Source: Parashewanella spongiae
GTDB lineage: Bacteria; Pseudomonadota; Gammaproteobacteria; Enterobacterales; Shewanellaceae
Assembly: GCF_004358345.1 (NCBI RefSeq)
Contig: NZ_CP037952.1
Coordinates: forward strand, 3,906,001-3,970,000
Direction of reading: 5' to 3'
DNA length: 64,000 nucleotides
Shown: positions 7,094-58,721 of the stretch, one piece after another
How positions within the stretch are numbered: position 1 is the stretch's first letter
Layout of the letters: each line of letters begins with the position of its first letter
Made by a program: the position numbers and the translations under genes
The notes under the pieces: generated by a model
The model's input: the letters and a program-made list of their open reading frames with translations, nothing else
Database searches by the model: none
What the model was told of the DNA's origin: nothing

Positions 7094-7259
7094 TAAGTAC
7101 CTGACCATAAGTTTCTTAAGATTTTCTAGTGCCCAGTTACAGCACTTTACGGTGTTGCAACTTCGGTTACATAGCTACGGCTATGCGCCCTACATTGCGT
7201 CTTGTATAGCACTAAACCTGAACACAATAATTATCAAAGAACTTATCGACAGGTACTTA
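7094..7259. repeat. Miniature element, family D, copy 1
   Basis: A 166-bp non-coding element with inverted ends TAAGTACCTG and CAGGTACTTA. Its interior includes a near-palindrome around CATAGCTACGGCTATG. Similar copies lie at 51937-52100 and 56125-56290. I see no clear target duplication. The 220 bases between X1 and this element hold nothing I recognise. Confidence 0.85.
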
Positions 7260-11311: not shown

Positions 11312-13321
11312 GTAGAGTAGGCTACTGGCTTCGCTATCGCTTATCCAGCAGCCCCTCTTCGATTCCGTGCATGAGGTTTTCCCTCACACGGCTCTGTTGT
11401 TACACTTCTCTCAGCCCCTTCACTTTGCTTATCATCTTGTCGTGGGTAAATACTCAAGACCAGCTTGGCGTAATTTTTCGTAAGCACCTCGTGATAGATA
11501 CTTGCTGCGACGTTGACTTAAGCGACGATGCCATCGATAGAATCGGTTTACTACAAATCCATTTATTCTGAAAAATACTCCTCTGGGATATCCTATCCCA
11601 GCAAAATAGTGTTTCCATCCCCTCAGAACTTGATTAACTTTATTTATCAGTACGCCAAGTGTATTTGAGGTTCGATGCTTCACTATGTCTCTGAGTTTAT
11701 TTTTCAGCTTTGTTTGGCTCTTCTTAGACGCCTGTATCTTAATGTAACTGGTGCCTTTGATGAGGCCTGTGATCCGTTGAAAGTTAAAACCGAGGAAATC
11801 AAACTCATTCATCAGCTTTCCCATATCCACACAGTGGGTTTTACTTTGATTTAGCTTCAGACCTTCATCACTTAATTGCTGTGTTATCCAGTCCAGTTGC
11901 TCTTGTGTGTAGGTTTGCTTATGAAGTACAACAAAATCATCTGCATAGGTAACGATTTTACACGGTGTTTTTTCGTGTATTTTCAAACAGAAATCGTTGA
12001 GATAGATGTTAGCCAGTAGTGGAGAGATAACTCCGCCTTGCGGAGTGCCACATCGGCTTGCTTCTATTCGCCATTTCCCGTTGACCGTCTCTATGCTGAT
12101 GGGCGCTTTGATAAAGCTTTTCAGCAAACTCAGAAAGCTGCTGTCGCTTATTCGCCTTTCTACTTTTGCCATCAACTTAGCGTGCGGGATGGTATCGAAA
12201 TAGGCGCTCAAGTCAGCATCGAGTACGTGCTGATAGCCTTGTTTTAGGCTCATTTCAATGACTTTTACCGCTTGCTGGGCGCTTCGACATGGACGGTAGC
12301 CATAACTGTGTTCATGTAAATGAGGTTCGTAGACGGGTTGCATCACTATTGTCATCGCCATTTGCACAATTCTGTCACTGATTATCGGGATCCCAAGTTT
12401 CCGCGTTTTGCCGTTGTCTTTGAGTATTTCTACTCGTTTGACTGGGCTAGGTCGATAGTTTTTCTGTTGTAATTGAGTTTGAATTTCTTTTAACAGCGCA
12501 ACAACTTTCTTTTGCTGCTCTAGATAACTGAATGTGATGCCATCAATTCCTGCTCCGCCTTTATTGGCTTTGCATCGTCGATAGGCTTCTTCGAGTATAT
12601 CTAGGCGACTGAGTTTATCGTACAAGCTGTAAAATCGTAGCTCCGAGTTAAGCTTTGAGCGTAAGTAAAGTTTTCGCTGTAATATTCTGATATTTACTGG
12701 AGTGTTAGCCATATGGCAATTTCACCTCAAAAGTTACGTTAAAAACGGGTGTAACACTGAGCCCCTTCCCTGATGTGAAGTTATGTTGTCTTCACGGTTA
12801 ACGGTACTATGGGCTCATCCGACTGCCTGAGCGCCCTATCTGAAATTTCGGTTTACCTTATATTCGGATAGTGCAAGTCACTACCTTCCAACACTCAGGC
12901 TCTCCCACGTTCACTTTATTTCCTTCAATACATGCCACTTCATATTACGCCGGAAGATCAAACAGATGCATTTACCAGTTGCTTCTCTATTTGTGTCAGG
13001 GTTCGTCAACTAGGAAAGACTCCCCATCTTCATTTTTTGATTTACGACGCTTAACTGAATTCGCTTGATGCTGCGGTCTACATTGCATCTCAACCTTTAT
13101 TCAAGGCCTTTGTCACAGGGCTTCATGTCATAGCGGTTACCCATTATGCATGCCCGTCAGATTTCGGGATGAACTGGTAATTATCCCGTCAGGTACGTTT
13201 CAACCTGATGGACTTATTATAAATAATAACGTTGCTGTCTCTGGTTTATGGCCATGTAATCGCTTGGCTGCGTATACGTTGAGACAAATCCCGCAACGGA
13301 ATAAAGCGCTTCGTGGCGCTC
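11312..13321 (-). mobile_element. Group II intron 1 (complete)
   Basis: Domain V is visible on the minus strand near 11350-11400, from GAGCCGTGTGAGGG to CGAAGAGGGGC. Domain VI pairs GGCTGCTGG with CCAGTAGCC, and the intron ends in ...CTCTAC at 11312. The 5' end is set at 13321 (GAGCGCC...), directly against the end of miniature element B2; this is my inference from the junction, not from a full fold. The reverse transcriptase gene lies in the middle. About 610 bases upstream of it (12713-13321) correspond to the structured 5' domains and contain no gene. Confidence 0.75.
11432..12712 (-). CDS. ltrA: Group II intron reverse transcriptase/maturase
   Basis: The 426-residue intron-encoded protein combines an RT domain (about residues 50-300) with a maturase domain (about 320-400). 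The catalytic motif YADD occurs as VTYADDFVVL (about residue 247), and the block [17 protein letters not shown] precedes it. The maturase part includes RGWKHYFAGIG. I see no C-terminal HNH endonuclease. The reading frame is intact, so the intron could be mobile. It differs substantially from the two other intron proteins in the window, so this is a separate lineage. Confidence 0.92.
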   Translation of the reverse strand: MANTPVNIRILQRKLYLRSKLNSELRFYSLYDKLSRLDILEEAYRRCKANKGGAGIDGITFSYLEQQKKVVALLKEIQTQLQQKNYRPSPVKRVEILKDNGKTRKLGIPIISDRIVQMAMTIVMQPVYEPHLHEHSYGYRPCRSAQQAVKVIEMSLKQGYQHVLDADLSAYFDTIPHAKLMAKVERRISDSSFLSLLKSFIKAPISIETVNGKWRIEASRCGTPQGGVISPLLANIYLNDFCLKIHEKTPCKIVTYADDFVVLHKQTYTQEQLDWITQQLSDEGLKLNQSKTHCVDMGKLMNEFDFLGFNFQRITGLIKGTSYIKIQASKKSQTKLKNKLRDIVKHRTSNTLGVLINKVNQVLRGWKHYFAGIGYPRGVFFRINGFVVNRFYRWHRRLSQRRSKYLSRGAYEKLRQAGLEYLPTTR

Positions 13322-17557: not shown

Positions 17558-17820
17558 CCTAAATAAATCGGTTGAACGCACAATTTAGCTTTAATCTATT
17601 GAAGTTAAATACAAAACTAAACAACCCTACTTCACCCATCAGGTGTGTACTGAACATTCATATACTTGCCAAAATCACCGCTAGCTGCGTTATAAATTTT
17701 GCAAGTAGAAACGAAGTAACGACAGTTTTGTATGTCGGTAACCACTACTTGCTGCTATTCATGCCTTGCTATCAGTAATTTTTTCTGCGTATATGAACGC
17801 TCCCAACCGATTTATTTAGG
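17558..17820. repeat. Miniature element, family C, copy 1
   Basis: A 263-bp element with ends CCTAAATAAATCGGTTG and CAACCGATTTATTTAGG. Exact 5-bp repeats ATGAT flank it (17553-17557 and 17821-17825). It lies inside the 5' domain of intron 2 and includes the hairpin cassette at 17720-17737. Confidence 0.94.
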
Positions 17821-28584: not shown

Positions 28585-29853
28585 TTGGACGCTATCTCGA
28601 CCGGAACCCTTCTGGTTATACTTGCAATTCTTATCTTTTGTTCAGCTTACTTTTCAGGTTCAGAAACAGCCTTGATGACTCTCAATCGTTATCGCCTTAA
28701 GCATCTTGCTAATGGCGGTCACCGAGGAGCTACTCGCGCAGCAAAGTTACTAGATAAACCTGATCGACTAATCGGCCTTATTCTGTTTTGTAATAATCTT
28801 GTCAATATTATTGCTCCAGTATTGGCGGCTGAAATTGGTCACAGGTTATCTGGTGATCTCGGTGTTGCTATTGCAACAGGTATTTTAACCGTTGTTATTC
28901 TTGTTTTTGCAGAAGTAACACCTAAGACGTTTTCTGCGCTTTACCCTGAAAAAGTTGCTTTTCCATCTAGCTATGTTTTGACATTTTTAGCCATTGTTTT
29001 ACGCCCGTTTGTTTGGGGACTCAATGTCATTACCACCATGTTTTTACGCTTAATGGGAGCAGACAAAGCCACCTCTGCTAATGCATTAAGCCAAGAAGAA
29101 CTGAGAAGTGTTGTGAATGAGGCTGGAGCACTGATACCACAGCGTCACCAAGAAATGCTACTTTCTATTCTTGATTTGGAAAATGTCACCGTTGAAGATG
29201 TGATGGTGCCAAGAGCAGATATTTATGCCATTAACGTAAACGATGATTTCAAGCTCATTAATAAGCAAGTGGTTCAAAGCCCTCATACGAGAGTTTTAGT
29301 CTATCGTGATAACGCCGATGATGTCGTTGGATTCATCCATTTGAGAGATGCATTACGCCTACAATCTAAAGAGCAATTCAGTAAATCATCATTATTAAGA
29401 GCCGTAAAAGAGCTTTATTTTATTCCAGAAGGTACGCCACTAAATGTTCAGCTAACAAACTTTCAACGCAACAAAGAACGTATTGGAATTGTGGTTGACG
29501 AATATGGCGATATTCAAGGACTGGTAACACTAGAAGATATTCTTGAAGAAATTGTCGGTGATTTCACCACATCCATGATGCCTGCACCAAGTGAAGAAAT
29601 TATTGCCCAGCAAGATGGTAGTTTATTAATTGATGCCAGCATCAATATTCGTGAACTCAATAAAGAAATGAAATGGGACTTGCCGATAAATGGCCCGAAA
29701 ACATTGAACGGTTTAATTATCGAATACCTTGAAGATATCCCGACCCAAAACACCAGCCTGCGTTTAGCTGGTTACCCAATTGAGGTCGTAGATGTGGGTG
29801 ATAACATGATAAAAAATGTTCGGATAATGCCACAGCATTACAAAAAACCTTAA
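28585..29853 (+). CDS. yfjD: CNNM/CBS-domain membrane protein of the CorB/YfjD (HlyC/CorC) family
   Basis: The 422-residue protein has an N-terminal CNNM transmembrane domain (about 1-190, four hydrophobic segments, with FSGSETALMTLNR). Two CBS domains follow (about 205-330, with VEDVMVPRADI and VVDEYGDIQGLVTLEDILEEIVGD), then a C-terminal CorC-HlyC domain. The family is tied to magnesium and cobalt export. The start is TTG at 28585, with GGAG upstream; no better ATG fits. The stop TAA overlaps the target duplication of element C2. Its original terminator now lies about 890 bases away at 30740. Confidence 0.9.
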   Translation: MDAISTGTLLVILAILIFCSAYFSGSETALMTLNRYRLKHLANGGHRGATRAAKLLDKPDRLIGLILFCNNLVNIIAPVLAAEIGHRLSGDLGVAIATGILTVVILVFAEVTPKTFSALYPEKVAFPSSYVLTFLAIVLRPFVWGLNVITTMFLRLMGADKATSANALSQEELRSVVNEAGALIPQRHQEMLLSILDLENVTVEDVMVPRADIYAINVNDDFKLINKQVVQSPHTRVLVYRDNADDVVGFIHLRDALRLQSKEQFSKSSLLRAVKELYFIPEGTPLNVQLTNFQRNKERIGIVVDEYGDIQGLVTLEDILEEIVGDFTTSMMPAPSEEIIAQQDGSLLIDASINIRELNKEMKWDLPINGPKTLNGLIIEYLEDIPTQNTSLRLAGYPIEVVDVGDNMIKNVRIMPQHYKKP

Positions 29854-30088
29854 GCCTAAATAAATCGGTTGGGAGCGTTCATATACGCAGAGAAAATTAC
29901 TGATAGCAAGGCAAGAATAGCAGCAAGTAGTGGTTACCGACATACAAAACTGTCGTTACTTCGTTTCTACTTGCAAAATTTATAACGCAGCTAGCAGTGA
30001 TTTGGCAAGTATATGAATATTCAGCACTCACCTGATGGGTGAATTCGGGTTGTTTAATTTTGTATTTAACTCCAATAGATTAAAGTTA

Positions 30089-32041: not shown

Positions 32042-32226
32042 GTGATAGCAAGGCATGAATAGCAGCAAGAAGAGGTTACCGACATACAAAACTGTCGTTA
32101 CTTCGTTTCTACTTGCAAAATTTATAACGCAGCTAGCGGTGATTTTGGCAAGTATATGAATGTTCAGCACTCACCTGATGGGTGAATTAGGGTTGTTTAA
32201 CTTTGTATTTAACCGATTTATTTAGG
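32042..32226. repeat. Truncated miniature element, family C, copy 3
   Basis: About 185 bases match family C from the region GATAGCAAGGCATGAATAG to the end CCGATTTATTTAGG. The left end is missing and about 35 bases are deleted before the right end. The hairpin cassette is at 32080-32097. Confidence 0.85.
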
Positions 32227-38377: not shown

Positions 38378-38469
38378 TTAAATAAGATGGCAAAAAACGT
38401 CCAAAATCCACTTACCTCCTACACTCTACCTTCAACACTCTTTGATGACACAAAACTATCTTCGTTAAA

Positions 38470-38732
38470 CCTAAATAAATCGGTTGAACGCACAATTTAA
38501 CTTTAATTTATTGAAATTAAATACAAAATGAAGCAACCAGAATTCACCCATCAGGTGAGTACTGAACATTCATATACTTGCCAAAATCACCGCTAGCGGC
38601 GTTATAAATTTTGCAAGTAGAAACGAAGTAACGACAGTTTTGTATGTCGGTAACCACTACTTGCTGCTATTCATGCCTTGCTATCAGTAATTTTTACTGC
38701 GTATATGAACGCTCCCAACCGATTTAATTAGG
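38470..38732. repeat. Miniature element, family C, copy 4
   Basis: A 263-bp copy with ends CCTAAATAAATCGGTTG and CAACCGATTTAATTAGG and exact TTAAA repeats (38465-38469 and 38733-38737). The hairpin cassette is at 38632-38649. Confidence 0.94.
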
Positions 38733-38805
38733 TTAAATTGAGTATGAATGCTCATCAGTTAATCTAATGCGCAATTATTATAACCTTTTGAATTTAATTG
38801 CTTTG

Positions 38806-51632: not shown

Positions 51633-51660
51633 TTACTTAAATGTAGTCCTATTGTATAAT
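51633..51660 (+). promoter_or_regulatory. Promoter of the gene-less TPP riboswitch
   Basis: TTACTT (51633-51638) and a perfect TATAAT (51655-51660) are 16 bases apart, just upstream of the riboswitch. Confidence 0.6.
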
Positions 51661-51663
51661 CAC

Positions 51664-51835
51664 CAAAGCCAAGGGGGGGAGGCCAAAAAGCCTAGACTGA
51701 GATGTTTAAACAACCCCTTAGAACCTGATCCGGCTAATACCGGCGTAGAAATGGATTAAAGTACAAGTGCAACTGACTCTTTTTATGAGCGTTCGCACTG
51801 ATCACGCTTTCAAACCACTCTAGCTTTGCCGGATC
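51664..51835 (+). ncRNA. TPP (THI-box) riboswitch without a downstream gene
   Basis: The conserved core is present: CTGAGA (51697-51702), ACCCCTTAGAACCTGATC (51713-51730) and the stem CCGGC-TAATA-CCGG followed by CGTAGAAATGG. The element binds thiamine pyrophosphate. An 8-nt downstream segment GCCGGATC (51828-51835) is the exact complement of GATCCGGC (51727-51734), as in the second riboswitch. No start codon or gene follows; the next plus-strand feature is a terminator. The neighbouring gene 52103-52906 runs in the opposite direction. Confidence 0.92.
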
Positions 51836-51877
51836 TCAAACATTTTTTTGGTATTCCTGCAATCATCTAACGATTTA

Positions 51878-51926
51878 TACACCTACATTCACGCTGAAAC
51901 ACAATCTATGTAGGTGTATTTTTTTT
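51878..51926 (+). terminator. Strong rho-independent terminator after the gene-less riboswitch
   Basis: ATACACCTACAT and ATGTAGGTGTAT form a 12-bp stem followed by eight T. With the promoter it defines an RNA of about 255 nt. Confidence 0.9.
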
Positions 51927-51936
51927 GCCTAAAAGT

Positions 51937-52100
51937 TAAGTACTTGACGATAAATTATTAAACATTTTTCTCATATCTTAAGCACTCTACAGCGTTGTGT
52001 CTCAGGTTGCATATCTACGGCTATGCGTCCTTCCCCACGTCTTGTATTGCAGTCAATCTATGAACAAAAAAGTACTCAATAACTTATACTCAGGTACTTA
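51937..52100. repeat. Miniature element, family D, copy 2
   Basis: A diverged 164-bp copy with ends TAAGTACTTG and CAGGTACTTA. It is inserted between the riboswitch terminator and the stop codon of the next gene. Confidence 0.8.
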
Positions 52101-52102
52101 AG

Positions 52103-52906
52103 TTAGTTTACTGATATACGAATCTCTGAATAATAATGTTGCTCTATTACTGGGTTATACCCTCTAACTCTAACAATATATGTTTCTGGTTCCTGATAAG
52201 TAAATTCATAAGAGATTTTACATTCTTGACCAGACTTCAAGGTCTTACAATCATTAACATTACCAAGTTTTAAATTATCGCTAGGAGATAGGTTTAAACT
52301 TGTAGAATCTATATAAATGTATTTTTCTGGGTCATTTGTTAAATTTTTTATATAAATATCCCCAATAATAATTTGTCCTTGACGCCCTGTAACTGTAATC
52401 AAGTTTTTTACTGATGTGTCTTGCTCAGGAGAATAAAGTGTTACACCTGATTCTGTGGTATTTTCAAATAAGCAATCAGTACTGGAACCCAAACACGAAT
52501 CCATTTTCCACTTTGGAAAATCAATTGGACTAAATTGCAGAAAATTTTGCTCTTCCGCTATTGCATAAATGTAATGATTAGCATCACTTTCAAACGTTGT
52601 GTAATAACACCATAAAGGAACAAAATCACTTTCATGCCCTGTTAAATTGGGCAAAGACACTAAAGAAAATTTTATTTTATAGTGACCATTTTCAATTCTA
52701 CCACTTTGGTAAAGTAGCTTAAAATGCATATCCAATGTTTGAGGCCCATCTAAAGCACAATTTACTACTTTATCCTTTACGTGACACACTCCTGTATCGG
52801 GACAGCGCAGCGGCGTAGCTCCCACTGCAAAACTTGACCCCACAAAACAGATCAAACAGACTCCTACCTGAAAAGCTAACAAACACCTACATAATAAATT
52901 ATTCAT
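52103..52906 (-). CDS. Secreted protein of unknown function, paralogue of its neighbour
   Basis: The 267-residue protein has a signal peptide (about 1-29). After it comes LRCPDTGVCHVKDKVVNCAL, then a region with Cys pairs (CLGSSTDCLF) and a C-terminal beta-rich domain resembling an Ig-like fold (KNLTNDPEKYIYIDS, LKSGQECKISYEFTYQEPETYIVRVRGY). Cysteine placement and motif order match the adjacent 52919-53686 product. The two are 12 bases apart on the same strand and form an operon. I recognise no family. A periplasmic or extracellular location is inferred. Confidence 0.78.
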   Translation of the reverse strand: MNNLLCRCLLAFQVGVCLICFVGSSFAVGATPLRCPDTGVCHVKDKVVNCALDGPQTLDMHFKLLYQSGRIENGHYKIKFSLVSLPNLTGHESDFVPLWCYYTTFESDANHYIYAIAEEQNFLQFSPIDFPKWKMDSCLGSSTDCLFENTTESGVTLYSPEQDTSVKNLITVTGRQGQIIIGDIYIKNLTNDPEKYIYIDSTSLNLSPSDNLKLGNVNDCKTLKSGQECKISYEFTYQEPETYIVRVRGYNPVIEQHYYSEIRISVN

Positions 52907-52918
52907 GACGTTACAAAC

Positions 52919-53686
52919 CTAATAGACAAAGAAATCCATATTATTGATATATTTTTCTTCTGACTCTCCGACGCCGAGAAAAAGAATCTTCGACCAACCA
53001 GTCATCTTCGAAGTATACTCAAAATGATAATCCACTTCGCAGTCATCTTCAGGCACTAAGCTTTCACAACTCTTCGAGTACTCTATATTTAATTTTGGAT
53101 CCGCTACAATCTGTATCGAATGAATTAAAGATTTTGTTGTATTTTTTAAAAAAACTTTACCTTGAACCCAATCGCCAACACTTTTATTTTGGACATCGAT
53201 TCTATTTATTAATGCTCTATTTTGCTCTCTTGAATATACTCTAAAACCTTTTGATTTTGCATATTCAAAATTACAATCAAGGTTTGATGAACTACACTCT
53301 GAAACTCCTTCCCAAAAGGTTAAATTTTCAGGGTAAAACAAATGGTCTGCATACACTGAAACTAACATTGAGGATTTAGATTCAACAGGTAAGTTATAAA
53401 AGCATTGCAATGGGGTATAATGTTTTTTGTCCTTCACATAGCCAAAATTTGCACCAAGAACCACACGGCTAAATGACAACAGGTATTCTCCGTCGTAAGT
53501 GTCCTTACCGGCTAAGGTTACTCCTATTTTAAATGCGTTTGCATCACTACTTATAAAATGACAGTACTTTTTACCATCTTTTATCGTACAAGCAATATTT
53601 TCTGGGCAATGTAATACATCTTCAGCAACGGCATCATAAACAACCAACATCAATACAATCGTAAATATCAATCGGAAACGTTTCAT
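52919..53686 (-). CDS. Secreted protein of unknown function, first of the paralogous pair
   Basis: The 255-residue protein has a signal peptide (about 1-21). It shares with the next gene the N-terminal LHCPENIACTIKDGKKYCHF, a middle block ECSSSNLDCNFEYAKSKGFRVYSREQN, and a C-terminal part with KVFLKNTTKSLIHSI, ESLVPEDDCEVDYHFEYTS and FLGVGE. The common layout suggests tandem duplication. The pair lies between the two TPP riboswitches but is transcribed away from the second, so it is not under its control. Function unknown. Confidence 0.78.
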   Translation of the reverse strand: MKRFRLIFTIVLMLVVYDAVAEDVLHCPENIACTIKDGKKYCHFISSDANAFKIGVTLAGKDTYDGEYLLSFSRVVLGANFGYVKDKKHYTPLQCFYNLPVESKSSMLVSVYADHLFYPENLTFWEGVSECSSSNLDCNFEYAKSKGFRVYSREQNRALINRIDVQNKSVGDWVQGKVFLKNTTKSLIHSIQIVADPKLNIEYSKSCESLVPEDDCEVDYHFEYTSKMTGWSKILFLGVGESEEKYINNMDFFVY

Positions 53687-53787: not shown

Positions 53788-53789
53788 CA

Positions 53790-53963
53790 TACTACCCAAG
53801 GGGTGTTTGAGTACGACTCAAACTGAGATTACACCCTTAGAACCTGATCCGGCTTATACCGGCGTAGGAATGGAAAATTATTTACTCAGCGGATTTAAAC
53901 TGCTGAGTCGTCATATTTACTGATCCCGCTCAGCCGGATCTCAAATTTTAATTTTGAGGTCCT
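53790..53963 (+). ncRNA. TPP riboswitch controlling the thiamine receptor
   Basis: The core reads AAACTGAGATTACACCCTT, then AGAACCTGATCCGGC-TTATA-CCGGCGTAGG. Downstream, ACTCAGC/GCTGAGT forms a stem, and GCCGGATC (53933-53940) is the exact complement of GATCCGGC (53846-53853). Next, CTCAAA (53940-53945) pairs with TTTGAG (53953-53958), hiding the ribosome binding site GAGG (53956-53959) of the ATG at 53964. This suggests translational control: ligand keeps GATCCGGC in the aptamer so the GAGG hairpin forms (inference). Confidence 0.92.
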
Positions 53964-56123
53964 ATGCTCAACAAAACGTTTAACTCATATCGCCACAAGC
54001 TATCTCCACTAGCATTATCTGTTGCCGTAGCCTTTTCTGGCCAAGCTTTTGCACAAGATAACAATCCTGAAATTGAAGTCATTAAAGTTACTGCTGACTT
54101 TCGCAACCAAGAGTTGTTAACTTTGCCTGCGAGTGCCACCATCATCGGTGCTAAGCAAATCGAAGATGAAGGTAATCAACACTTTGAAGATGCGCTAAAT
54201 TCAATCGCTAACTTTAACTGGTCGGGCGGTAGCTCTCGTCCACGTTACTTCCAAATCCGTGGCGTGGGTGAACAAGAAGATTATCAAGGTGCACCTAATT
54301 CATCGGTAGGATATGTGATTGATGATATCGATTTGTCTGGTCTTGGTATGGTTTCAAGCATGTACGACTTACAACAAGTGGAAGTCCTTCGTGGACCTCA
54401 AGGTACTAGATATGGAGCAAATGCACTTGCCGGTTTAATTTACTTAAAGAGCAATGACCCTGAAGTTGAACGTGAGAATGGCGCAGAAGTCTCTTTTGGT
54501 GATGATAATTTGCGCACCTTAAGCAGCTATAGCACTGGTGCAATCAACCAATCTGAAACGCTACTTTATCGTGCGACGATTCAGCAACATTACCAAGATG
54601 GCTTCCGGGACAACACATACTTAGGTCGCAGCGATACTAACAAACGTGACGAGTTTACAGGCCGTATTAAATTACGCTGGTTAGCGACAGATGTTCTAAC
54701 AGCTAATTTAGCTATTTTACACGCCAACTTTGATAATGGTTATGATGCATGGACATTGGATAATAACGGTTTCAAAACCAATACCGATCAACCGGGTGTA
54801 GATAACCAAAAAACCACTGGTTCAAGCCTAAAGCTGAACTACACAGGTTTTGATAAATTTAACCTAACTTCTATTACATCTTACGCATCAACTGACCACC
54901 AGCATGCTTATGATGGCGACTGGGCAAACCCTGATTACTGGGCAAGCCGTAACTGTGGCACAGCAGAAGCACCTGAAGGTTGTGAATACGATTATTTGTG
55001 GGACAAGAAAGGCGATCGCCGCACTGTTTCTCAAGAATTCCGATTCAGCTCAAATGAAAATGGACGTATCTTCGCCGACTCAACAGATTGGTTAGTGGGT
55101 TTGTACACTATGAACCTGAAAGAAGACAACGACCTTTATTCAGAGTACAACACTTGGCCTGATGAAGTGATGCAGTCAAAGTATGATGCAACCAACTATG
55201 CAGTATTTTCACAATTAGATTCAAACTTTGGGAATGGCTATAACCTTTCAACAGGTCTTAGACTCGAACGCCGTAACAGCGAATACTCAGATACTAATGG
55301 TGATGCATTCAAACCATCTGAAAACATGTGGGGAGGTCATATTGCATTAAGCAAAAATCTGACTAACCAACACAGCACATACGTGCGTGTAGCTCGTGGT
55401 TACAAAGCGGGCGGCTTTAACATGAGCCTACCTGCTGAGCTGTCAGATAAGAAAGAATTTGATACTGAAATCCTTTATAACTACGAAGTTGGCTTAAAGT
55501 CTTTCTGGTTAGACAACGCTTTATCAACCAACTTATCTGTGTTCTACATGGATCGTCAAGAACAGCAAGTTTCAGCGTCTCAGCAAAACCCTGAAAGACC
55601 GCAGCGTTTCATCCTATTTACTGAAAATGCGGGTAGCTCTAAAAACTACGGTGCTGAGCTAGATACTAAATGGCAAGCTACCGATAACTTGGACTTATAT
55701 GCCAGCTTTGGTTGGTTAGAAGCAACTTACGGTGACTACATTTATAAAGATAAATACGGTACGCCAGTTGAACTTTCAGACCGTGAATTAGCACACTCGC
55801 CAAAATTCACTAATAGCCTTGGCGCAACTTATCGTACTGATAATGGTATCTTTGTAAACTTACACTCCAGTGGCAAGAGCAAATTCTTCTACTCAGATAG
55901 CAATGACTCACAATCAAAAGGCTATCAAATTTTGAATGCGCGTATCGGTTATGAAGCGGATAGTTGGGGTGTTTACTTATGGGGTCGTAATTTGTTTGAT
56001 AAGAAATATGGCGTACGTGGTTTCTACTTCGGTAATGAGCCAGATTTAGGATGGGCTGATAAGCAATACATTCGCTATGGCGATCCTCGCTCAATGGGTG
56101 TAACGGCTAACATTAGTTTTTAA
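53964..56123 (+). CDS. TonB-dependent receptor for thiamine (Omr1-type)
   Basis: The 719-residue protein has a signal peptide (about 1-30, ending GQAFAQ), a plug domain (about 40-165, with IRGVGEQEDY and VEVLRGPQGTRYGANALAGLIYLKS) and a barrel ending TANISF. Its place behind a TPP riboswitch marks it as an outer membrane receptor for thiamine or its precursors, as described for riboswitch-linked TonB receptors. It is smaller than the three receptors upstream and belongs to another subfamily. The remaining thiamine genes follow after about 700 bases of miniature elements. Confidence 0.9.
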   Translation: MLNKTFNSYRHKLSPLALSVAVAFSGQAFAQDNNPEIEVIKVTADFRNQELLTLPASATIIGAKQIEDEGNQHFEDALNSIANFNWSGGSSRPRYFQIRGVGEQEDYQGAPNSSVGYVIDDIDLSGLGMVSSMYDLQQVEVLRGPQGTRYGANALAGLIYLKSNDPEVERENGAEVSFGDDNLRTLSSYSTGAINQSETLLYRATIQQHYQDGFRDNTYLGRSDTNKRDEFTGRIKLRWLATDVLTANLAILHANFDNGYDAWTLDNNGFKTNTDQPGVDNQKTTGSSLKLNYTGFDKFNLTSITSYASTDHQHAYDGDWANPDYWASRNCGTAEAPEGCEYDYLWDKKGDRRTVSQEFRFSSNENGRIFADSTDWLVGLYTMNLKEDNDLYSEYNTWPDEVMQSKYDATNYAVFSQLDSNFGNGYNLSTGLRLERRNSEYSDTNGDAFKPSENMWGGHIALSKNLTNQHSTYVRVARGYKAGGFNMSLPAELSDKKEFDTEILYNYEVGLKSFWLDNALSTNLSVFYMDRQEQQVSASQQNPERPQRFILFTENAGSSKNYGAELDTKWQATDNLDLYASFGWLEATYGDYIYKDKYGTPVELSDRELAHSPKFTNSLGATYRTDNGIFVNLHSSGKSKFFYSDSNDSQSKGYQILNARIGYEADSWGVYLWGRNLFDKKYGVRGFYFGNEPDLGWADKQYIRYGDPRSMGVTANISF

Positions 56124-56124
56124 A

Positions 56125-56290
56125 TAAGTACCTGTCGATAAGTTCTTTGATAATTATTCTGTTCAGGTTTAGTGCTATACAAGACGCAATGTAGGGCGCA
56201 TAGCCGTAGCTATGTAACCGAAGTTGCAACACCGTAGAGAGCTGAAACTGGGCACTAGAAAATCTTAAGAAACTTATGGTCAGGTACTTA
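56125..56290. repeat. Miniature element, family D, copy 3
   Basis: A 166-bp copy, inverted relative to D1, with ends TAAGTACCTG and CAGGTACTTA. It starts directly after the receptor stop codon and abuts element E1. Confidence 0.88.
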
Positions 56291-56751
56291 ACCTGAGCTC
56301 TGCGTAACGAAATCAGTAAACGTTTAACCTAAATAAATCGGTTGGGAGCGTTCATATACGCAGAAAAAATTACTGATAGCAAGGCATGAATAGCAGCAAG
56401 AAGTGGTTACCGACATACAAAACTGTCGTTACTTCGTTTCTACTTGCAAAATTTATAACGCAGCTAGCGGTGTTTTGGCAAGTATATGAATGTTCAGCAC
56501 TCACCTGATGGGTGAATTAGGGTTGTTTAATTTTGTATTTACATTCAATGTATTAAAGTTAAATTGTGCGTTCAACCGATTTATTTAGGTTTAATTAGAA
56601 AACAATGCTCAATGTATTATCGACAATGCGGTTAGTTATTAGAAGTTCAAGGTGTAGTAGCCAAAAAACAACAGGCTATTTCGAGTTGCTACAACGCTGA
56701 AATCCGTATAAGCAGCTGTGCTGTAGAGGTTTGCTTACGCAGAGTTCAAGT
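56291..56751. repeat. Miniature element, family E, copy 1, interrupted by C5
   Basis: The left part (CTGAGCTCTGCGTAACGAAA, 56293 on) and right part (to TTACGCAGAGTTCAAG) have inverted ends and match copy E2 at 62339-62532. Element C5 lies 35 bases in. Without C5 it is about 195 bp. Confidence 0.78.
56328..56589. repeat. Miniature element, family C, copy 5
   Basis: A 262-bp copy with ends CCTAAATAAATCGGTTG and CAACCGATTTATTTAGG and exact TTTAA repeats (56323-56327 and 56590-56594). The hairpin cassette is at 56411-56428. Confidence 0.94.
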
Positions 56752-56827: not shown

Positions 56828-57088
56828 ATGAAACTCACTGCCGAAATTAGCATGTACCCATTTAACGAAAACTACCTTGAACCAATACAATGGTTCATCG
56901 ATAGATTAAAAACTTATCCTAATATTGAGCGCGTGACTAACGCTATGGCGACTCAAATTTGTGGTGATTACCTTGAGGTGATGACCATGCTTGCTCACGA
57001 AATGAAAGCGGCGAACGAAAAATGGGGCAAAGCCGTTTTTGTTTGTAAATTTATTGGTTCTGAAATCGACTTAACCTACAAACAATAA
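56828..57088 (+). CDS. Thiamine-binding protein of the YkoF/MTH1187 family
   Basis: The 86-residue protein is a single ferredoxin-like domain of the COG0011/YkoF type. It reads MKLTAEISMYPFNENYLEPIQWFIDRLKTYPNIERVTNAMATQICGDY. YkoF binds thiamine, and related small proteins occur beside thiamine transport genes. The location between a thiamine receptor and a PnuT-like permease supports that role. AGAGG precedes the ATG. It is cytoplasmic (no signal peptide) and 9 bases ahead of the permease gene, so the two are co-transcribed. Confidence 0.85.
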   Translation: MKLTAEISMYPFNENYLEPIQWFIDRLKTYPNIERVTNAMATQICGDYLEVMTMLAHEMKAANEKWGKAVFVCKFIGSEIDLTYKQ

Positions 57089-57097
57089 GGCTAACTC

Positions 57098-57712
57098 ATG
57101 GATATTTTCCAAACCCTATTTGGTGAAATGCACGCTATGACTGACTGGGAAATCATCGCGGTTGCGCTGGCACTCGCCTACTTGATCCTTGCGATGAAAG
57201 AAAACATATGGTGCTGGCCAGCAGCGTTTTTCAGTTCAGCGATTTATATGATCATTTTCTGGGAAGTGTCGTTGCTGATGGAATCAGTCTTAAGTTTCTA
57301 TTACATTGGCATGGCCGTGTACGGCTTTTGGGTATGGACTAAAGGCGGCAATGAACACCAAGGTGTTAATGTGGTGTCTTGGTCAGCATCAAAACACTTT
57401 CAGATTATCGCAATAACTGGATTAATTTCCATTATTGTTGGCTACTTGATGGCTAAATATACTTCAGCTTCGTTCCCATACCTTGATGCGGCAACCACTT
57501 GTTTTGCGGTAATGACGACCTATTTAGTCGCACAAAAAGTACTCGAAAACTGGTTGTATTGGATGGTGATAAATTCCGTGTCTATATACTTGTACCTGAA
57601 TAAAGGTTTAATACTGACATCAGTCTTATTTGTGATGTACTTAATCCTTGCAGTAATTGGGTATTATCAGTGGCGTAAATCGATGCAATCAGCGCAATCA
57701 ATAGCGAGTTAA
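57098..57712 (+). CDS. pnuT: PnuT-type thiamine transporter (PnuC family)
   Basis: The 204-residue inner membrane protein has about seven hydrophobic segments and the PnuC-family blocks ENIWCWPAAFFSSAIYMIIFWEVSLLMESVLSFYYIGMAVYGFWVW (about 37-80) and WMVINSVSIYLYLNKGL (about 150-166). PnuC members import nicotinamide riboside; those in TPP-linked clusters, called PnuT, import thiamine. The surrounding genes point to thiamine. These transporters work by facilitated diffusion and need a kinase to trap the substrate, which the next gene provides. Confidence 0.88.
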   Translation: MDIFQTLFGEMHAMTDWEIIAVALALAYLILAMKENIWCWPAAFFSSAIYMIIFWEVSLLMESVLSFYYIGMAVYGFWVWTKGGNEHQGVNVVSWSASKHFQIIAITGLISIIVGYLMAKYTSASFPYLDAATTCFAVMTTYLVAQKVLENWLYWMVINSVSIYLYLNKGLILTSVLFVMYLILAVIGYYQWRKSMQSAQSIAS

Positions 57713-57716
57713 ACGT

Positions 57717-58721
57717 ATGCTCCAACCTCAATGGCCAAATTCGATAAAAAATGCTTTGCTGTCTTGCCAACAGCAAACTGGTTTGCTGCTCATAGAACCA
57801 GCAATCGAATTATCGACATTGTCAGCAGGTTGGAGTAACCAAAACTTTAAACTAATAACATGCAAGCAACAGTTTGTACTAAGAGTTAACTCCAAACAAT
57901 CCAATGCAATTTGCAATCGTAATAACGAAGTCGAATGTTGGAGCATTGCCGAAAAGGCCGGTCTTGCGCCAAAGCTTTTTTGGGTCAGTGATGATAAGCA
58001 ATATTACCTAAGTGAATACTTACCGCAGCCACAAAATAAGCAGATACAGACCGCTCAATTGCTTAATCTTTTAAATCGCATAAAGCGTTTACCTTTGCCA
58101 ACCCATGCCATTACGACTTCAGATCAATGGAGGAGTTATTTCAAGCAAATCACAACAATCAATAACCAACTTCTTCTAAGAAAAAATAAAGCTCAAAATG
58201 CAATTTTATTAGCGCTTACCAAAACATGGTTGCAAGCTAAAGATGACCTCTTAAATAAAAAAAAACAGATTGAATCAGCGCTTACGGACATAGAGTCGTG
58301 TCAAATCAAACCTCAATTTTGCCATAGAGACTTGAATGCAAATAATATACTCATTAAAGACGACCAATTAGTTTGTATCGACTTTGAATACGCCTGCACT
58401 TCACACCCGCTATTTGAATTGGCTGCCGTCATTTGTAGCCATAATTTCAATAAAGCAGAAGAAGCATCATTAGTACGTGATTACTTAGTCAACAATTCTA
58501 ATTTGACTGAAAATGCACATATAAACCTTTCCTCTGCTTGTAAAATATTTTGGTGTTTCTTCCATTGTTGGGCCGTCATTATGATGGGTAATACATTATT
58601 GTCTGATACCAACGAATTGCAAGGCGATGAAAAAGAAACTGAAAAGCAGAACGATGAAATAGAAAAAAGCTTTAATAATTATTTTCAGATCTGTGAGCAG
58701 TACAAAAACAAGTTTTTTTAG
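57717..58721 (+). CDS. Phosphotransferase, probable thiamine kinase
   Basis: The 334-residue protein belongs to the aminoglycoside phosphotransferase/choline kinase fold. It shows LSAGWSNQNFKLIT near the N-terminus (nucleotide loop), the catalytic block FCHRDLNANNILI (about residues 201-213) and the metal-binding DFEYA (about 222-226). It begins 4 bases after pnuT. Thiamine kinase (ThiK-like) activity would phosphorylate imported thiamine. The substrate is inferred from the operon, as the fold alone does not distinguish thiamine, choline or others. Confidence 0.82.
   Translation: MLQPQWPNSIKNALLSCQQQTGLLLIEPAIELSTLSAGWSNQNFKLITCKQQFVLRVNSKQSNAICNRNNEVECWSIAEKAGLAPKLFWVSDDKQYYLSEYLPQPQNKQIQTAQLLNLLNRIKRLPLPTHAITTSDQWRSYFKQITTINNQLLLRKNKAQNAILLALTKTWLQAKDDLLNKKKQIESALTDIESCQIKPQFCHRDLNANNILIKDDQLVCIDFEYACTSHPLFELAAVICSHNFNKAEEASLVRDYLVNNSNLTENAHINLSSACKIFWCFFHCWAVIMMGNTLLSDTNELQGDEKETEKQNDEIEKSFNNYFQICEQYKNKFF

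Follow-up and report, generated by a model that had tools for sequence, protein, structure and literature searches.

Introduction

TPP riboswitches of the TonB-receptor class (THI element, RF00059), known from Shewanella and Parashewanella, are the closest described relatives of the element reported here. Judging from their sequences, in an intact leader of this class and without TPP, the aptamer strand GATCCGGC would pair with the downstream strand GCCGGATC, and the ribosome-binding element GAGGTCC would be open. When TPP is bound, the aptamer would hold GATCCGGC, and a CTCAAA...TTTGAG hairpin would then cover the ribosome-binding element. A second point of comparison is provided by the SAM riboswitches SreA and SreB and the B12 riboswitch Rli55 of Listeria, which are described in PMC8079631 as trans-acting RNAs with shown targets. 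The SreA and Rli55 transcripts depend, according to the same account, on ligand-controlled termination (PMC8079631).

The present study concerns a TPP riboswitch without a gene in Parashewanella spongiae. It lies in a stretch of 64,000 nucleotides (contig NZ_CP037952.1, positions 3,906,001 to 3,970,000), here called the window, and all coordinates are counted from the first nucleotide of the window. The orphan riboswitch has the aptamer layout, the -10 spacing, the GATCCGGC/GCCGGATC switch and the GCCGGATCTCAAA word in common with the TonB-receptor class, but it differs from the class by three core changes, a weakened P3 root and the lack of GAGGTCC, a start codon and a gene. With SreA, SreB and Rli55, as these are described in PMC8079631, it shares the combination of a riboswitch aptamer with a short transcript whose end could be set by a terminator. 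In contrast to SreA and Rli55, the orphan has a terminator that, by prediction, works independently of the switch; the orphan was not found to be conserved and has no known target. A literature search covering titles and the starts of abstracts gave, among the entries listed, no report on the orphan locus or on a gene-free TPP riboswitch. If it were retained and functional, the orphan would, to our knowledge, be the first gene-free TPP riboswitch RNA.

Results

Two TPP aptamers were detected in the window with Infernal, and the same two were detected in the entire 5.47-Mb genome. The orphan aptamer is located at 51662-51768 on the + strand and reaches the RF00059 gathering score with a margin of 0.1 bit (54.4 bits against a cut-off of 54.3, E 6.8e-08), which is the lowest score over the cut-off among the matches listed in 36 family genomes. 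The other (53789-53887, +, 73.2 bits) is the intact riboswitch of a neighbouring TonB-dependent receptor gene (53964-56123, +), for which thiamine uptake is suggested by the riboswitch and the neighbouring genes. This intact riboswitch-TonB unit is situated 2 kb downstream of the orphan on the same strand.

The orphan is preceded by a promoter-like sequence, TTACTT-16-TATAAT, at 51633-51660 (+), with TTACTT at 51633-51638, a spacer of 16 nt and TATAAT at 51655-51660. The -10 element is exactly 12 nt 5' of the aptamer GGGG, as it is in 23 of the 24 other TonB-type leaders, the spacing being 13 in that of genome G012. The promoter noted in a preliminary description of this DNA can thus be read in the sequence, with a poor -35 element, and a consensus promoter scan does not list it. 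The 8-nt complement of that description was also recovered: GATCCGGC on the aptamer side (51727-51734, +) and GCCGGATC on the platform side (51828-51835, +), a word of the class that has been retained, are exact complements.

The strong terminator described earlier was likewise found. It extends over 51878-51926 (+, -13.7 kcal/mol) and consists of an 11-bp stem (51878-51888/51908-51918), a 19-nt loop and a run of eight T (51919-51926). A custom scan (arm of 10 bp, loop of at most 25, T6) detected similar sites elsewhere in the window once on the + strand and once on the - strand; in 200 mononucleotide-shuffled sequences of 3 kb it detected none. A standard scan, which considers loops of 3-8 nt only, lists no terminator. 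Compared with 200 shuffles, the whole orphan element has a better fold than 198 (z -2.70). The terminator stem and the GATCCGGC-GCCGGATC pairing occur side by side in the predicted structure and have no strand in common, and TPP control of termination is therefore not expected. The terminator is present, but it is predicted to lie outside the switch, and on the simplest reading it would be the terminator of the lost transcription unit.

In agreement with the earlier observation that no open frame follows, no + strand ORF of at least 120 aa starts within 900 nt past the orphan aptamer (1,500 nt extracted), and tblastn gave no TonB or ThiC match within the 1,500 nt. The longest + strand ORF listed from the orphan to 53964 has 49 aa, and the next large ORFs past the orphan, at 52103-52906 and 52919-53686, are both on the - strand. 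The ribosome binding site and the start codon are also gone, as had been stated: intact leaders of the class have GAGGTCC and ATG at the site corresponding to 51849-51862 (+), and neither was found there in the orphan. As no fragment of a receptor gene was found in the 1,500 nt, it is the leader class that has to tell what the lost gene was. A receptor moved elsewhere in the genome was considered and rejected, since the next-best TonB match in the host genome has 35 % identity over part of the protein and no moved copy was seen.

The genes following TPP riboswitches were surveyed in the family genomes G000 (the host) to G035, G011 being without a match, by taking at most 1,500 nt 3' of every riboswitch. 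The 36 family genomes gave 68 TPP riboswitches, 34 of which precede a TonB receptor gene, 30 ThiC, two ThiD and one PnuC. Thus, 67 of the 68 precede a thiamine-type gene and the orphan is the sole exception. Gene-free copies are accordingly rare in the surveyed genomes, at least under the stricter Infernal filters used in the survey, which lose weak matches and may have missed weaker relics elsewhere.

The platform of the orphan indicates its class. The word GCCGGATCTCA, searched for up to 200 nt past the aptamer, is present in the orphan and in 19 of the 34 TonB-receptor leaders, and occurs in none of the 30 thiC leaders and none of the three others. All 19 TonB leaders with GCCGGATCTCA also have GAGGTCC before the start codon, an element that the orphan is without, and the 15 TonB leaders without GCCGGATCTCA are of other platform types. 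Because GCCGGATCTCA is restricted to TonB-receptor leaders among those surveyed, the orphan descends from a TonB-receptor leader, and it is a TonB-class leader minus the ribosome-binding element and the start codon.

The aptamer core was compared with that of 36 intact leaders. Columns of the anchored core segments were regarded as near-invariant when they were the same in all, or all but one, of these leaders, and each intact leader was scored against the rest for changes in the core columns. The orphan differs at three of the 45 near-invariant columns, and each of the 36 intact leaders at none or one (for L143 the start was set too far upstream in this comparison). The orphan has G at 51677 (+), where all 36 intact leaders have T (GGGGT), the leader pattern for the alignment comparison having been limited to T or G at the base following GGGG. 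At 51714 (+) it has C, or an inserted C, where A is found in 36 of 36. At 51749 (+) it has A in place of the G (GTAGG) of all 36 intact leaders, 13 of which had been fetched by a pattern that fixes the stretch from P4/P5 to GGAATGG, including the base at 51749, and 23 of which had not. The P3 helix of the orphan has one unbroken root pair compared to 2-14 in the others, which is a weak difference, since five others have two. Taken from the sequence, the three core changes would weaken binding of TPP, and they, like the loss of GAGGTCC and ATG, probably arose from relaxed selection. The preliminary description had called the TPP riboswitch complete; with a score that passes by 0.1 bit and three changed columns that are invariant in 36 of 36 intact leaders, this can no longer be maintained.

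Conservation of the element in relatives was looked for with the platform and terminator (query 51769-51960) in 152 family genomes. Contrary to what would be expected of the retained RNA suggested earlier, the query had no match in the 151 other genomes beyond 22-nt pieces in two. One of these pieces sits in an apparently ordinary TonB-class leader with GAGGTCC and ATG, and the other is a T-run plus part of a hairpin arm. Further matches in the host genome itself are to the MITE-like repeat that starts at 51937. A 34-nt string of the orphan, from P4/P5 to AAATGG, had no exact match in a species-genome collection, from which the window's own record had perhaps been left out. The comparison covered one genome of the host species.

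Homologues of thiC, thiG and thiE (TMP-TENI) were not found in the host genome and are present in all four congeners, which indicates a reduction of the set of thiamine genes in this lineage. It is probable that the host is a thiamine auxotroph that relies on the TonB-pnuC-kinase cluster. In this cluster the receptor gene is followed by a PnuC-family transporter gene (57098-57712, +), probably of the thiamine type judging from its context, and by a gene for an APH-fold kinase (57717-58721, +), which is thiamine-kinase-like below the curated cut-off only. An orphan of this kind is not a consequence of thiC loss alone, because the genomes G006, G009 and G012 are also without thiC and each has one riboswitch, placed before TonB.

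The order of genes in the slot differs between the host and its congeners. In the congeners G001 and G002 the order is TonB2-like receptor, cytochrome c, DUF3360 permease, riboswitch, TonB, pnuC and kinase, and G003 and G004 share this order, with no cytochrome c match found in the stretch. In the host, the order is TonB2, cytochrome c, focA (-), orphan, two paralogous genes (-), riboswitch, TonB, pnuC and kinase. The slot has been rebuilt. The DUF3360 permease gene (L078:4476-6002), which the four congeners have directly 5' of their riboswitch-TonB unit, was not found in the host genome. The possibility that the orphan was the leader of this permease gene was rejected, as the four congener stretches (L078, L080, L082 and L084) show only the pre-TonB TPP match, down to E 5. 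The two paralogous genes that separate the orphan from the intact riboswitch (52103-53686) are 25 % identical to each other, and no Pfam or NCBIfam match was found for them at E 0.001.

Discussion

The orphan is, with high probability, a decaying relic of a second TPP (vitamin B1-sensing) leader of the TonB-receptor type in this marine bacterium, the receptor gene of which has been lost. According to this explanation, a second leader of the TonB-receptor type would once have controlled a + strand gene at this place, most likely a gene for a thiamine receptor. The gene would have been lost, and the leader would then have lost its ribosome-binding element, the start codon and invariant core bases. 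The -10 element and the terminator are still there, so that a functionless RNA of about 260 nt may still be transcribed. Relatives carry this class of leader directly 5' of a TonB receptor gene, and in the orphan the core is changed and GAGGTCC and ATG are lost, which supports the earlier suggestion of a relic of a lost thiamine gene. The preliminary description had further reasoned that a gene directly behind the leader in relatives, together with a decayed aptamer here, would speak against a retained RNA, and this is essentially what was observed. The terminal branch of the orphan in the leader tree is long, 2.5 compared to a median of 0.12, in a tree with long branches and unsettled bootstrap, from which L143 was left out. 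The leader comparison was made without G006, the platform of which is off the pattern, and without L145 and L148, which share their contigs with G002 and G001, respectively. Several observations count against a relic: neither the -10 spacing nor either strand of the 8-nt switch shows any deviation, the Rfam score is above the cut-off, the fold is better than that of 198 of 200 shuffles, and the framing by a promoter and a terminator is tidier than expected of random decay.

Since the intact riboswitch at 53789 is on the same strand, 2 kb apart and of the same class, the orphan could be thought of as its recent local duplicate that was never joined to a gene of its own. The two have 41 nt in common at 95 % identity, and over aligned columns the neighbour is 86 % identical to the orphan, which is the top value of the 36 leaders, tied with that of G009. 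However, by alignment score, in which gaps are counted, the neighbour ranks 21st of the 36, with the Shewanella leaders L149 and L141 first, and in the leader tree the neighbour forms a group with G001 and G002 (100/99) that does not include the orphan, the position of the latter being unsettled. In addition, the stretch from TGAGA to GAACC, which can form an extra P3a hairpin, is 11 nt long in all five intact leaders of the genus, but measures 18 nt in the orphan, and 30 other leaders have 18-23 nt. A recent duplication is thus very unlikely, and the evidence from the sequences, although mixed, leans towards an older or foreign leader rather than a local duplicate. An origin from the leader of a thiC operon, left behind after the loss of thiamine synthesis, would agree with the disappearance of thiC, thiG and thiE from the host, as all four congeners have these genes, with a TPP riboswitch close upstream of thiC. 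The aptamer and platform of the orphan are, however, of the TonB class, and its position corresponds to the TonB/cytochrome c region of G001 and G002, away from their thiC locus. The features that would tie the orphan to a thiC leader having them are GCCGGATCTCA and the AAGGGG...GAACCTGATCCGGC core, and with GCCGGATCTCA in none of the 30 thiC leaders this origin is largely refuted by the class words and must be regarded as extremely improbable.

The preliminary description also offered the possibility of a retained RNA that would respond to TPP and work either in trans or as a TPP sponge. Such a small RNA, of about 260 nt, would bind TPP and have the terminator as its defined 3' end. A -10 promoter element, the switching pair and the terminator are indeed combined in one compact gene-free unit that folds better than nearly all of its shuffles, and riboswitch-derived trans-acting RNAs are known in Listeria, as described in PMC8079631. 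On the other hand, the platform and terminator are not conserved in the 151 other family genomes, beyond the two short pieces, and the core is altered at three columns invariant in the intact leaders. The predicted terminator forms alongside the switching pair, so that control by TPP is not expected, and a sponge effect at cellular levels of TPP seems implausible. There is thus little to support the proposal of a retained RNA, and we consider it unlikely. In a more specific form of it, a TPP-binding RNA of about 260 nt, no longer attached to a gene, would have been re-used in a thiamine auxotroph after the loss of the receptor gene, and its GATCCGGC and GCCGGATC strands would base-pair in trans with the mRNA leader of the remaining receptor gene, adjusting the synthesis of the receptor. 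Based on the sequence, this is conceivable but most unlikely.

As a decaying relic, the orphan provides a readable snapshot of the decay of a riboswitch after loss of its gene. In the orphan, the ribosome-binding element, the start codon and some core positions have been lost, and the -10 element, the 8-nt switch and a terminator persist. It also gives a warning that an Rfam match barely above the cut-off is no evidence of a working riboswitch.

The history of the receptor genes in the genus may have involved two lineages, one of which was perhaps once behind the orphan. In the TonB tree the host groups with G001 and G002 (100/99), excluding G003 and G004, whereas the rpoB distances, in a comparison that had no outgroup, place the host furthest out. 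This conflict fits with two receptor lineages, which we put forward as a suggestion. A xenologous replacement of the receptor was tried as an explanation of the same conflict and was not adopted beyond this suggestion.

The MITE-like repeat at 51937-52100 (strand not applicable) is a neighbour of the orphan riboswitch and not part of it, and has copies elsewhere in the genome. The repeat is about 165 bp long, has inverted ends (AGTACCTGAC...), is apparently flanked by TA and occurs in two subfamilies. Copies were seen at 51937-52100, 56125-56292 and 7094-7259 and in L136-L139, and also in the congener G004 (L084). The first of these starts 10 nt past the orphan terminator, and another is located directly past the stop codon of TonB. 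A different repeat of up to about 270 bp is found at 56323-56594, with full or partial copies in the window at 38465-38737, 17558-17820, 29845-30088 and 32043-32211. Between TonB and pnuC there is a small ORF of 86 aa (56828-57088) with sub-threshold matches to YkoF and thiamine-binding protein, and similar DNA is present at the same place in other TonB loci of the Shewanellaceae. A match to a Group II intron (RF00029) was obtained at 11312-11396 on the - strand.
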